Source: Polyangium sp. 15x6 (GTDB lineage: Bacteria > Myxococcota_A > Polyangia > Polyangiales > Polyangiaceae). Taken from it: a stretch of 41,250 nt of DNA. Below, piece by piece: positions 3,270 through 33,198 of this stretch. The stretch spans positions 1 to 41,250 of the forward strand of contig NZ_JASBQE010000104.1 of NCBI RefSeq assembly GCF_029960785.1, given 5' to 3'. Every line of letters begins with the position of its first letter. Position 1 is the first letter of the stretch. The notes beneath the pieces were generated by a model, which was not told where the DNA came from, searched no databases, and saw only the letters and a list, made by a program, of their open reading frames with translations. The position numbers and the translations under genes are program-made.

Positions 3270-3313
3270 GCCCGCCATCGGCAGTATTGTCGGCACGTCC
3301 GTCCTGACCAACG

Positions 3314-6293: not shown

Positions 6294-8726
6294 ATGGACC
6301 TCGTTTGTCTCTGTCCCCTTCGCGCGTCGACGTTCGCCTGGCAGGCACATACCGGAGCGCATGCGCTGACGGTGATTGTCAAGGCTACTTTCGTGGTAGA
6401 GCCGGGCGAATGCACGCTCGCGCCGAAGCAGGAGCCGGTGCACGAGGAGGATGGATACTGGAACGACGATCCCGCGCGGAGCGTGGTCACGCCGAGCGAC
6501 AACGTGCCGTACAAGCCGCGGGCGGACGTGACGCTCGTCGGGCACGCGTATGCGCCGGGGAAACAGCCGGTGCGCTCGATGATGACGCGGCTCGTCGTGG
6601 GGGAGCTCGATAAATCGATCGAGGTCTGGTGCGATCGAGGGTTCCGGGTGCAGGACGGGCAACTGCTGGAGGGGCCGCGGTTTTCGAAGATGCCGCTCCG
6701 GTGGGAGCGCGCGGCGGGCGGGCCGGAGACGAACAATCCGGCGGGGATGCGGTTCGACGCGGCGCCGGATGCGTATGGCATGGTGCCGATTCCGAATTTG
6801 CAACCGCCGGGAACGTTTGTATCCAAACGATCGGATACATTTTCCTCGGTAGGATACGGGCCGGTCGGGGCGGAATGGCCGGCGCGGAGGCAGCGGCTCG
6901 GGCGTTTGGCGGGGACGTTCTCGCCGACGGGGTGGTCGGAGCGGCCGCTGCCGGAGGGGATGGATCCGGCGTATTTCCAGGCGGCGCCGCCGGATCAGCA
7001 GGTGATGGAGCTCCGGCCGAACGAGCGGATCGTGCTGGAAGGGTTGCACCCGGAGCATGCGCGGGTGGTGACGAATTTGCCGGGGGTGCGGCCGAGCGTG
7101 GTGGTGGATCGGGCGACGGGGGAGCGGGAGGAAGTGCGGCTCGTCGCGGATACGTTGTCGATTGACACGGACCGCGGGGTGTGCTGCGTGGTTTGGCGGG
7201 GCATGATCGGGCTGCGCAGCGCGGACGAGGCGGGGCGGATTGCGGTGCGGATGGAGGGAGCAGGGGCCCAGGGAGCAGCGGACGCGGCGGAGGAGATCGA
7301 GGAGGATTTGCTGGAGACGATTCCGCCGACGGCGCTGGCGGCGGGGAATGGGGACGAGGAGGAGGATCTCGCGGCAATGACCCTGGTGCCTGCGTTCGGG
7401 GCGAAGGCCTCGGGGCCGGTGATGCCGTTTTTGGGAGGCGAACGGCCGCGCGTGACGGCGGCGCCTGCTTCGAAGCCGGGAGATGCGGCATTGCCGTTCG
7501 GGCAGCCGGCGAGTTTGGCGGCGCTCCGGGCGGTGGAGGTCGCGGCGGTGCCGGTGGCGGGGGACCAAACGATGTTTCCGCCCATGGCGAAGAAGGCAGC
7601 ACCGCCGGCCCCGAGCGCGGCGCCGATTGCGCCTCCCGCGTACGTTCCGCCGCCTCCACCGGTGGCGGCTCCGCGCGCGACGGCGGAGAGCGTGTGGTCC
7701 TCGGGCGCGCCGGGGACGACGGCGGCGCCGTCGCGGGAAACGATTGGTTCGGCCGCGGCGGCTGCTGCGGCGGCTGCTGCGGCGATTGCGACGCCGAGTG
7801 TGGATCGGGCGAGCCAGGAGGGCGCGCTGGCCGCGTCGAATGCTGCGGCGGGCGCGGTGCCGTGGAGTGTGCCGAAGCGGGATTTGCGGCCGGCGATCGC
7901 GGAGAGCGAGGCGCTTGGCGTCGAGCCGGCGCGGGAGATGTTGCAGCTCCTCTGGTACGACCCGGAGAGCATCGCGCGGATGCGGCGGGTGCCGGCGTGG
8001 AAGAAGGTATTCGAAGAGCTCGAGCGGAGTCCGCGATCACGCGAGATCGAGATCGTGGATGGAGCACGCGAGCCGTGGGAAATCGAGGATCGGCAAGAGG
8101 TGTTTCAGGTCCTCGCCAAGGCGCCGCGGGTCGACGGCAAGGGTGTGGAGGAGGCGCTGGAGGGGGCGATCGGCGAGGACGGGAAGTTCGTCCCGCCGAT
8201 GGTGTTGCTCGCGGGGGAGATTGAGATGCCGTTCGACGAGCTGGAGGCGCTCAAGGCGGCGATGTCGACGGCGGCGCCGCTCGTGACGGCGGCGGACGAG
8301 GGGCTGAAGGCGGCGGTGGGGGTGGCGAAGGATTTCGTGCAGATGCCGGGGTTGTCGGCGGCGCCGGCGGTGTGCGAGGGGTTGACGACGCGGATAAGGG
8401 ACGCGTTTTCGAGGGAGAAGAAGGGGCTGCCGGCGGATTATCTGGAGCAGCAGATGGAGAGGGTGCTGCTCGGGGGGAGGCATTACCAGAAGAAAGAGGT
8501 GTTCGGGGGGAGGTTCTTGCGGTGTTTGATTTGGTTGCCGGGAGAGAAGGGGGCGATCGTGGGGTATTTGCCGGAGGAGGTGGGGAAGAAGGTGCCGATG
8601 TGGAGGCGGTGGCGGGGGAGGGTGATCGGGGAGGTTTGGCCGGCGCAGGATCAGTATGAGGCGGGGGCGCGGGCGGTGAAGGTGGGGGGGGTGGGGAGGG
8701 CCGCGCCTGGCATCAAGAGGGCTTGA
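6294..8726 (+). CDS. DUF2169-family protein, probable T6SS cargo adaptor, with C-terminal extension
   Basis: An 810-aa protein. Residues 1 to about 310 match my recollection of DUF2169: an opening with FAWQ, then ALTVIVKATF, GYWNDDPARSV and DVTLVGHAYAPG, and later the Pro/Asn/Leu-rich NLQPPG region. DUF2169 proteins are found beside T6SS effectors, and some act as adaptors that load effectors onto VgrG. Residues 320-525 are low-complexity, with a poly-Ala run near 486-498. Residues 530-790 form a second folded, Trp- and Glu-rich domain I cannot name. A good ribosome site (GGAGAAGA) precedes the ATG. Codon use shifts along the gene: the second half prefers G-ending codons (GGG, GTG, AGG) and the 3' end carries an 8-G run at 8684-8691. 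It faces the last gene of the vgrG island, supporting an adaptor role there. Confidence 0.8.
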   Translation: MDLVCLCPLRASTFAWQAHTGAHALTVIVKATFVVEPGECTLAPKQEPVHEEDGYWNDDPARSVVTPSDNVPYKPRADVTLVGHAYAPGKQPVRSMMTRLVVGELDKSIEVWCDRGFRVQDGQLLEGPRFSKMPLRWERAAGGPETNNPAGMRFDAAPDAYGMVPIPNLQPPGTFVSKRSDTFSSVGYGPVGAEWPARRQRLGRLAGTFSPTGWSERPLPEGMDPAYFQAAPPDQQVMELRPNERIVLEGLHPEHARVVTNLPGVRPSVVVDRATGEREEVRLVADTLSIDTDRGVCCVVWRGMIGLRSADEAGRIAVRMEGAGAQGAADAAEEIEEDLLETIPPTALAAGNGDEEEDLAAMTLVPAFGAKASGPVMPFLGGERPRVTAAPASKPGDAALPFGQPASLAALRAVEVAAVPVAGDQTMFPPMAKKAAPPAPSAAPIAPPAYVPPPPPVAAPRATAESVWSSGAPGTTAAPSRETIGSAAAAAAAAAAAIATPSVDRASQEGALAASNAAAGAVPWSVPKRDLRPAIAESEALGVEPAREMLQLLWYDPESIARMRRVPAWKKVFEELERSPRSREIEIVDGAREPWEIEDRQEVFQVLAKAPRVDGKGVEEALEGAIGEDGKFVPPMVLLAGEIEMPFDELEALKAAMSTAAPLVTAADEGLKAAVGVAKDFVQMPGLSAAPAVCEGLTTRIRDAFSREKKGLPADYLEQQMERVLLGGRHYQKKEVFGGRFLRCLIWLPGEKGAIVGYLPEEVGKKVPMWRRWRGRVIGEVWPAQDQYEAGARAVKVGGVGRAAPGIKRA

Positions 8727-31051: not shown

Positions 31052-31594
31052 TCACTCACACGCTCGCAGCACCCGCTCACTCTCCTCCGCCCAGCGTAGC
31101 CACGCGCGCTCGCGCGTGATGCCGAGGCGCAGCGTCAGATAGATCAACTTCTTCCACCGCGGCATCTCGTCTACCGGTTCCGCATAGTACTTCGCCTCGA
31201 TCGCCTCGAACGTGGCGAGCAGCGCCGCATGACGTTCGCGCGCAAGCGCGAGCTGTGCACGCAGATCCTCGATGCCGACGAGTTCGGCCGCAAAAAACTT
31301 GATCATCAGCGGGTCGGCGTGACGGGGCGCCTCTGGCGGCTCGCGGAACCAATCGGCGAACGCACGCCGGCCCTTCGCCGTGATCGTGTACACCTTCTTG
31401 TCCGGCTTGCCCTGCTGCTCGACCTCCTTGAACCGCACGAGCCCCGCCTCGGCGAGCGCCGCGAGCTCGCGGTACACCTGCTGGTGCGTCGCGCGCCAGT
31501 AGAACCCGGCGACCTCGTCGAACTCCTTCGTGATCTCGTAGCCCGTGGCCGGGCGCGTGCCGACGACGGCCAGGATCAAGTGCTTCAGGGACAT
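31052..31594 (-). CDS. PadR-family transcriptional regulator
   Basis: A 180-aa protein. The N-terminal winged-helix PadR domain (1-80) opens MSLKHLILAVVGTRPATGYEITKEFDEVAGFYWRATHQQVYRELAALAEAGLV and has KVYTITAKGRRAFADWF. The C-terminal dimerisation region (90-178, Vir_act_alpha_C type) includes PLMIKFFAAELVG and a helical WAEESERVLRACE end. PadR proteins act as dimers on inverted repeats and usually repress a neighbouring gene. Two matching 18-bp inverted repeats lie in the 95-bp divergent gap to the gene at 31690, which is therefore the obvious target along with padR itself. The ligand is unknown. Confidence 0.92.
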   Translation of the reverse strand: MSLKHLILAVVGTRPATGYEITKEFDEVAGFYWRATHQQVYRELAALAEAGLVRFKEVEQQGKPDKKVYTITAKGRRAFADWFREPPEAPRHADPLMIKFFAAELVGIEDLRAQLALARERHAALLATFEAIEAKYYAEPVDEMPRWKKLIYLTLRLGITRERAWLRWAEESERVLRACE

Positions 31595-31620
31595 GGCGAG
31601 GCTCCTCCGATCGATCTACG

Positions 31621-31638
31621 TATGCACATGGTTGCATA
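31621..31638. promoter_or_regulatory. PadR operator 1
   Basis: TATGCA-N6-TGCATA, a perfect inverted repeat 26 nt upstream of the padR start. It covers the TTGCAT -35 box of the divergent gene. Confidence 0.6.
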
Positions 31639-31660
31639 TCCCGGCGCCGGATGCTAGGAC
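31632..31660 (+). promoter_or_regulatory. Candidate promoter of the Lnt-like gene
   Basis: TTGCAT (31632-31637), 17 nt, TAGGAC (31655-31660) preceded by TGC as an extended -10. Transcription would start near 31667, inside operator 2. The -35 lies in operator 1, so a bound PadR would block this promoter. Confidence 0.45.
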
Positions 31661-31661
31661 C

Positions 31662-31679
31662 TATGCTACAAGGTGCATA
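31662..31679. promoter_or_regulatory. PadR operator 2
   Basis: TATGCT-N6-TGCATA has the same 18-bp layout as operator 1 with one half-site mismatch. With flanking bases, CCTATGC (31660-31666) and GCATAGG (31675-31681) are also exact complements. It starts 41 bp from operator 1, about four helical turns. Confidence 0.6.
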
Positions 31680-31689
31680 GGTGGTCACG

Positions 31690-33198
31690 ATGCCTTCGCT
31701 GAAGACGCTGTCCTCCGAGCGCGTGCGCTGGGCGATCCTCGCCCTCGGCGCGGTAGCGCTCTGCTTCTCGAACGGCGTTCACGCCAACGTCTTCGCGGCT
31801 TGGGTCGCGCCGGCTCTGATGTTGCGCTTCGTGATGATGTCGCCGCCGCGCTCCGGCTTCGCCGCGACGGCGGTCGTGTGCGGCATCGCCTCTTTCGTCA
31901 CGTTTCGAGGCGCCATTCCCATGCCGGACGCGGAGTACGCCGTCACGAGCGTGATCTCCGGCGTGCTCGGCGCGGTCCCTTATTTGCTGCACCGCCTTGC
32001 AGCCCAGCGCCTCGGAGGTGTGCCGGGCTCGCTCGTGTTTCCTGCGGCGAACGTCACCCTTCTCTACGTGGTTTCTCTCGGCGGCCCGTTCGGAACGTGG
32101 GCGAACGACGCGTACGTCCAGCTCGACTTCCTGCTGCTCTCGGAGCTCGCCTCGGTGACGGGGCTGTGGGGCGTCGTGTTCTTCGTCGCGTGGTTCGCCA
32201 GCGCGGTGCAGGGGCTGTTCGAATCTCGCGCGCTCCGCACCAATCCAGCGCTCGTGGCGTTCGGAGCATGCTTCATCCTCGCGCTCGGCTACGGCGCCTG
32301 GGCTCGCTACACACCTCGGACCGCGCGCCAAACCGTGCGCGTCGCAGCACTCAGCAATCCTGCTTCCCTGAGCGATCTCTTCTTCGAAGGCTGCCCCGCG
32401 CGCGAGGACACCACCTGCCGCGCCGGAAACAGCCGCGCACGTCTCGACAATCTTTTCGCGAAGTCCGAAACCGCCGTCCAGAATGGCGCGCGGGTGATCG
32501 TCTGGTACGAGGGCGCGGCGCAATACGACGAAGGCTCCGAGGCCGAGTTCGTCGGGCGCGCGCAGGACTTCACCCGCCGTCACGGCGTCCATCTCGTCGC
32601 CGGCGCCCTCCAGGTCCCCCGGGATCCCGGCGCGCGGATGACCAACAAGGCGATGGTCTTCACGCCCGAGGGCCGGCTCGCGTTCGAATACGTGAAGTCG
32701 ATCCCCGTGCCTGGCGAGCCCATCGTCGCGGGCAATGGGCAGGTGCAAACGCTCGACACGCCGTACGGACGCCTCGGCGTGATCATCTGCTTCGACGCCG
32801 ACTTCCCCGCGCTCGGCCGGAAGGCTGCGCTGCAGGGCGTCGATCTGCTGCTCGTGCCGGCCAACGATTGGCGCGCGATCACGCCCCTGCACGGAGAGAT
32901 GACGGTGTTCCGCGCGATCGAGGGCGGCTTCAGTCTCGTGCGAGCGGCGAGCAACGGCCTGTCGATCGCGACCGACGCGCGCGGCGTGCGCCTCGGGTCG
33001 AACGATTCTTTCGCCTCGCCCGGCGCCATCTTGTATGCCGACGCGCCAATCGCGGGCCACCTGACCCTTTATGCCAGATTCGGCGACTGGTTCGCTTATC
33101 TCTGCGCACTTTGTCTCGCAGCCCTCACGGCCGGCGCGATCTGGTCGGCTCGGCGGCGGGTCGAGCTTCAGTCCACCGGCAAGAACTCCGCATTGTAG
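31690..33198 (+). CDS. Membrane-bound carbon-nitrogen hydrolase, apolipoprotein N-acyltransferase-like
   Basis: A 502-aa protein from the ATG at 31690 (a GTG at 31681 is possible). Residues 12-205 contain about six membrane helices. Residues 215-475 form a nitrilase-fold domain with the triad E274 (VWYEGA), K336 (FEYVKSIPVPGEP) and C368 (VIICFDADFP), followed by the PANDWRAI and VRAASNG segments; a final helix lies near 460-485. This is the plan of Lnt, which acylates the N-terminus of lipoproteins, but the spacing around Lys and the ICFD motif differ from the classical CYE form. It could therefore be a paralogue with another acyl acceptor. Control by PadR also argues against a housekeeping enzyme. 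The 3' end overlaps the convergent VOC gene by 31 nt. Confidence 0.8.
   Translation: MPSLKTLSSERVRWAILALGAVALCFSNGVHANVFAAWVAPALMLRFVMMSPPRSGFAATAVVCGIASFVTFRGAIPMPDAEYAVTSVISGVLGAVPYLLHRLAAQRLGGVPGSLVFPAANVTLLYVVSLGGPFGTWANDAYVQLDFLLLSELASVTGLWGVVFFVAWFASAVQGLFESRALRTNPALVAFGACFILALGYGAWARYTPRTARQTVRVAALSNPASLSDLFFEGCPAREDTTCRAGNSRARLDNLFAKSETAVQNGARVIVWYEGAAQYDEGSEAEFVGRAQDFTRRHGVHLVAGALQVPRDPGARMTNKAMVFTPEGRLAFEYVKSIPVPGEPIVAGNGQVQTLDTPYGRLGVIICFDADFPALGRKAALQGVDLLLVPANDWRAITPLHGEMTVFRAIEGGFSLVRAASNGLSIATDARGVRLGSNDSFASPGAILYADAPIAGHLTLYARFGDWFAYLCALCLAALTAGAIWSARRRVELQSTGKNSAL

Follow-up and report, generated by a model that had tools for sequence, protein, structure and literature searches.

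Within the PadR family of regulators, AphA of Vibrio is a global quorum-sensing regulator, for which the published binding box is ATATGCA-N6-TGCATAT (PMC3440409). The motif obtained by ChIP-seq in V. cholerae is ATGCAA-N4-TTGCAT, with sites that occur singly or in pairs with cooperative binding (PMC6855506). Other PadR operators are described as ATGT/ACAT inverted repeats with a spacing of about 8-10 bp, such as the ATGT-N8-ACAT operators of Bacillus subtilis PadR (PMC3506622), and two tyrosines of the Bacillus protein contact the DNA (PMC6457526). In a further PadR-repressor system the target is likewise a non-canonical relative of an enzyme of the envelope, but the target families differ from those described here and the accessible part of its description holds no AphA box. 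Among the matches listed, mostly from outside subscription journals, there was no printed report of AphA homologues outside Vibrio, and the literature covered, again mostly that outside subscription journals, held nothing relevant on PadR together with apolipoprotein N-acyltransferase (Lnt), on PadR in myxobacteria, or on Lnt paralogues with nitrilase.

The DNA analyzed (the window) is a stretch of 41,250 nt from the soil bacterium Polyangium sp. 15x6. It carries a padR gene (31052-31594, minus strand) for a 180-aa regulator of subfamily 1, with PadR and Vir_act_alpha_C domains and the sequence THQQVYREL in its recognition helix, and a divergent Lnt-like gene (31681-33198, plus strand) for a 505-aa predicted membrane enzyme with a nitrilase-type domain (E277, K339 and C370). 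The latter has a GTG start, and its counterpart in a second Polyangium record (L022) has ATG at this position. The gap between the two genes contains two palindromes of 18 bp, designated as predicted operators O1 (TATGCACATGGTTGCATA, 31621-31638, no strand) and O2 (TATGCTACAAGGTGCATA, 31662-31679, no strand), with a start-to-start distance of 41 bp. Paired inverted repeats of this length and spacing had been described in a previous, sequence-only reading of the window, and both are present as it reported. The edge of O1 lies 27 bp from the padR start codon, on its upstream side.

The PadR protein matches PF03551 (59.5 bits, cut-off 27) and PF10400 (63.3 bits, cut-off 22.4). Its nearest solved chain is AphA (1YG2; 150.4 bits, 4e-43, phmmer), ahead of a runner-up with 88.7 bits, and the AphA chain contains the same HQQVYREL sequence. 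A structural model of the protein (pLDDT 91.2) had AphA as its first Foldseek match (TM 0.86, rmsd 2.0, 40% identity, 1.4e-12). O1 and O2 match the AphA box in register, and both published AphA motifs share the center of these sites. Because AphA is nearest in structure and the palindromes match its box, the padR system is, by these comparisons, an AphA-type PadR switch; this typing of the regulator and of its motif goes beyond the sequence-only reading. The likeness to AphA of Vibrio extends to the length of 180 aa, the closest sequence and fold, the HQQ residues, the same 20-bp box and, as reported for some AphA promoters, paired sites. It differs in being a local regulator that adjoins a single target and has only two clear genomic sites, a number that argues against a broad regulon here. 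Bacillus subtilis PadR shares the fold and the 8-bp half-site spacing (PMC3506622), and its two DNA-contact tyrosines (PMC6457526) correspond by alignment to Y19 and Y41, but its half-site is ATGT rather than ATGC (one base off in each arm) and it has HSQ in place of HQQ.

The inferred promoter of the Lnt-like gene (31632-31660, plus strand) consists of a -35 element TTGCAT (31632-31637) that falls within O1, a 17-bp spacer and a -10 element TAGGAC (31655-31660), a placement that puts the expected start point at about 31667, inside O2. The earlier proposal that one repeat covers the -35 TTGCAT and the other the predicted start agrees with the overlap seen here, the start point itself being an expected one. 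A scan of 31500-31800 with the E. coli-type promoter consensus found no promoter, and the assignment is based on position and on the conservation of G-n-T-A (31653-31656), which is kept at the -10 place in all five divergent loci described below. O2 also includes AAGG (31670-31673), a possible Shine-Dalgarno sequence.

The product of the divergent gene has a CN_hydrolase domain, and its best NCBIfam model is Lnt (TIGR00546), with a score (115.6 bits) below the cut-off of 132.9; three other genes in the same genome score above it. E277, K339 and C370 are invariant in an alignment of 29 rows, and align with the triads encoded by the genome's three Lnt genes. The AlphaFold2 model (pLDDT 92.9) has seven N-terminal helices of membrane length, then the nitrilase domain and a C-terminal helix; this is the eight-helix layout of Lnt, in which the nitrilase domain separates helix seven from helix eight, and the helices have a predicted membrane location. 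The 24 best Foldseek matches of this model are solved Lnt structures (TM 0.70-0.74). Whole-chain fold (in the model), helix order and the Glu-Lys-Cys triad are thus common to Lnt, but C-F-D replaces C-Y-E/D at the nucleophile, NDWRA replaces NDxWF, and the loop after the lysine is unlike its counterpart in the genome's three Lnt genes. The description of the target as Lnt/nitrilase-like in the sequence-only reading is upheld by fold and triad, but the score lies under the family cut-off, which three Lnt genes of this genome exceed; the protein is accordingly called Lnt-like, for its modelled Lnt fold and its triad.

Genome contigs were scanned with the Lnt-like protein, which gave 106 relatives; the best 80 of these were taken on. 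Four of these 80 have a padR homologue nearby: two are Polyangium records (L022 and L023, with 89% and 84% identity to the Lnt-like protein of the window), one is a metagenome-assembled genome labelled Caulobacter (L027) and one an uncultured Erythrobacter (L024). PadR was also searched for in the orders to which L027 and L024 belong. Of 249 genomes in the former order and 396 in the latter, 15 and 11, respectively, had matches (both starting genomes counted), and three padR/Lnt-like pairs (L130, L144 and L145) were added. With the window included, eight such loci were found, and at least one exact site is present at every one. Two exact sites at exactly 41-bp spacing occur in seven (the window, L022, L023, L027, L130, L144 and L145), and the eighth (L024/L146, one and the same Erythrobacter genome) has a single exact site within a longer palindrome. 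Across a 90-bp stretch of the five divergent loci (the window, L027, L130, L144 and L145), all 20 bases of the palindrome core are invariant, compared with 8 of the other 70. Among those eight are the TT with which the palindrome arm makes up the -35 TTGCAT, and G-n-T-A at the -10 place; the 23-bp spacer between the sites is mostly variable among the divergent two-site loci. The Lnt-like gene of L027 has a frame change near residue 98 (near position 3285), which may be an assembly error.

The presence of sites was compared between Lnt-like loci with and without a PadR gene in 93 loci (L011-L101, L158 and L159), using flanks of about 1.5-3 kb and gene starts estimated from the protein match; some of these loci are perhaps one contig reached twice. 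An exact site was found in all four loci with a nearby PadR and in none of the 89 without one in the available flanks, where a one-mismatch site occurred once (L101). When 376 genomes from the order of L024 were searched for the Lnt-like protein, five matches came up, with sites in the three that have PadR and in neither of the two that lack it (L158 and L159). Among 42 PadR loci (L102 and L129 having been dropped as copies), the recognition helix contains HQQ in 17, and in 15 of these an exact site lies near the padR start, scored from 30 bp inside to 250 bp upstream; of the other two, L136 has a one-mismatch site and L143, which is altered in the wing as well, has none. The 25 non-HQQ loci have no exact site, and three (L142, L150 and L152) have one with a mismatch. 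The HQQ criterion was picked post hoc from the alignment and the loci are related, so that the Fisher value for this comparison, which ignores relatedness, is to be read with that in mind. Eight PadR loci (L131-L137 and L139) face a gene read as a short-chain dehydrogenase, an assignment made by family search for L131 and by eye for the others. A single exact site is present in seven of them, and the site of L136 carries a mismatch, indicating that the motif tracks the regulator rather than the Lnt-like gene. Where HSQ takes the place of HQQ, in the PadR relatives L147-L154, other palindrome-like sequences lie upstream, several with ATATGACAC, and these differing palindromes suggest a recognition code in the PadR family.

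From the arrangement of the sites and the comparisons above, it is very probable that dimers of the AphA-type PadR bind the two AphA boxes and repress the divergent Lnt-like gene until released by a signal. One dimer would bind to each palindrome. The putative dimer at O1 would cover the -35 element of the Lnt-like gene and, O1 being directly upstream of padR, would probably also limit padR itself, making PadR most likely a repressor with self-control. The one at O2 would cover the start point and the ribosome-binding region, giving steric repression. The centers of the sites are 41 bp apart, or about four helical turns, so both dimers would sit on the same face of the DNA and may act together. 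An inducing signal, probably a small molecule at the C-terminal part, would free PadR and switch on the Lnt-like enzyme.

The sign of this control is not fixed by the family, since AphA acts as both activator and repressor. PadR might bind but activate the Lnt-like gene, for example by contacting polymerase from O1, as AphA does at tcpPH (PMC6855506), but a dimer bound at O1, over the -35 element, or at O2, over the expected start, would be expected to keep polymerase off the promoter, and the AphA target table, in the portion of PMC3440409 at hand, lists mostly Negative sites, with vpsT Positive; activation is thus judged improbable. A more serious competitor, though still rather unlikely, is that the Lnt-like gene depends on one site alone and that the other serves padR autoregulation, without cooperation. 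The Erythrobacter locus indicates that two sites are not always needed, and just one site is present there and at each of the eight PadR loci linked to a dehydrogenase-type gene, but the 41-bp spacing is exact in all seven two-site loci even though the 23-bp spacer has mostly diverged. That the palindromes serve another regulator and lie near padR by chance is very improbable indeed. A like TATGC-N8-GCATA site does stand before an ArsR-like ORF in the same genome and in another record (L125), but the sites accompany HQQ-type PadR into a different gene setting, and exact sites are present at all eight PadR-linked loci and missing from the 89 Lnt-like ones with no PadR in the available flanks. 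The adjacent PadR, named as the binder in the sequence-only reading, is now backed by this comparison across loci, beyond its position alone, and repression by PadR from the two AphA boxes is the preferred reading.

Within the window, TATGCW-N6-TGCATA with up to two mismatches has four matches (O1 and O2, each on both strands), compared with a mean of 0.90 in shuffled sequences; 4 of 100 shuffles reached four, so the excess is modest in the window alone. The genome scanned comprises 13,383,143 bp in 275 contigs, and has three exact TATGC-N8-GCATA sites, equal to the count of a reversed-pattern control (three). In this genome-wide motif scan, of the kind proposed earlier, two of the three exact sites are O1 and O2, but the total is no higher than the control. 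TATGCA-N6-TGCATA with one mismatch occurs at five places (control, four), two being O1 and O2. A wider regulon in this genome was considered and rejected, as the three one-mismatch extras do not exceed the control level and the sole other exact site (G000:C267:5949-5966, L003) lies directly 5' of the ORF read, by eye from the ORF list and not by family search, as an ArsR-type regulator. The L125 site stands before a similar ArsR-like ORF, and L124 looks alike in raw sequence only; palindromes 5' of such an ORF are thus seen in this genome (L003) and in two other Polyangium records (L125, L128 and L124), and probably serve as the operator of the ArsR-like gene itself. In 16 relatives' genomes, the count of the exact pattern ranges from 3 to 17. 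The reversed control is as high in G282 (four sites, control four) and G448 (five sites, control six), but in G438, G483 and G463 it falls to 0, 1 and 1, far below the 14, 17 and 9 sites counted. Most of these sites have the form TATGCA-N6-TGCATA, and they may, from these counts, represent real regulons of AphA-type regulators.

In a midpoint-rooted tree of the Lnt-like proteins (29 rows, L027 left out), the seven PadR-linked proteins form one group (support 100/99), and the three Polyangium-type rows fall inside it, beside L130 (100/98). Lnt-like matches at 1e-20 were found in 12 of 282 genomes of the phylum, its own included, and in none of the 20 same-family genomes listed. Six other proteins of the window had no match at 1e-5 in L022, L023, L027, L024, L178, L179 and L180, loci that cover just a few kb around the pair, and on these few-kb flanks the neighboring genes were rejected as part of a cassette. 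A search of plasmids for the two proteins gave matches in 167 and 146 records, each below 60% identity. The occurrence in the phylum, the tree and the lack of matches to the neighboring genes fit a putative horizontal transfer of a two-gene cassette.

A more inclusive reading can be offered as a tentative possibility: that a padR-O1-O2-Lnt-like cassette moved between Alphaproteobacteria and Polyangium, that its AphA-type switch, known from Vibrio quorum sensing, acts through a rigid 41-bp two-dimer promoter clamp to control a second-line, inducible acyltransferase or amidase of the envelope, and that the ATGC half-site is determined by PadR position 38, the first Gln of HQQ. If true, the Vibrio regulator arose from a widespread family of local switches. 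The locus would extend AphA-box recognition beyond Vibrio to a simple setting with a single target, and offers a hypothesis for a recognition code that pairs HQQ with ATGC half-sites. Regulator, two operators, likely promoter and target can all be named from sequence and are conserved across phyla, which makes the switch directly testable and provides an entry point to an Lnt-like enzyme that is probably conditional. L178 (about 7624-7679; G882:C1:2943623-2943678) has a second such pair of AphA-type boxes, at a distance of 38 bp, between a LuxR-type response regulator, behind which lies a short PadR, and an ORF read as an ABC permease; the genome that contains it also carries a padR/Lnt-like pair.
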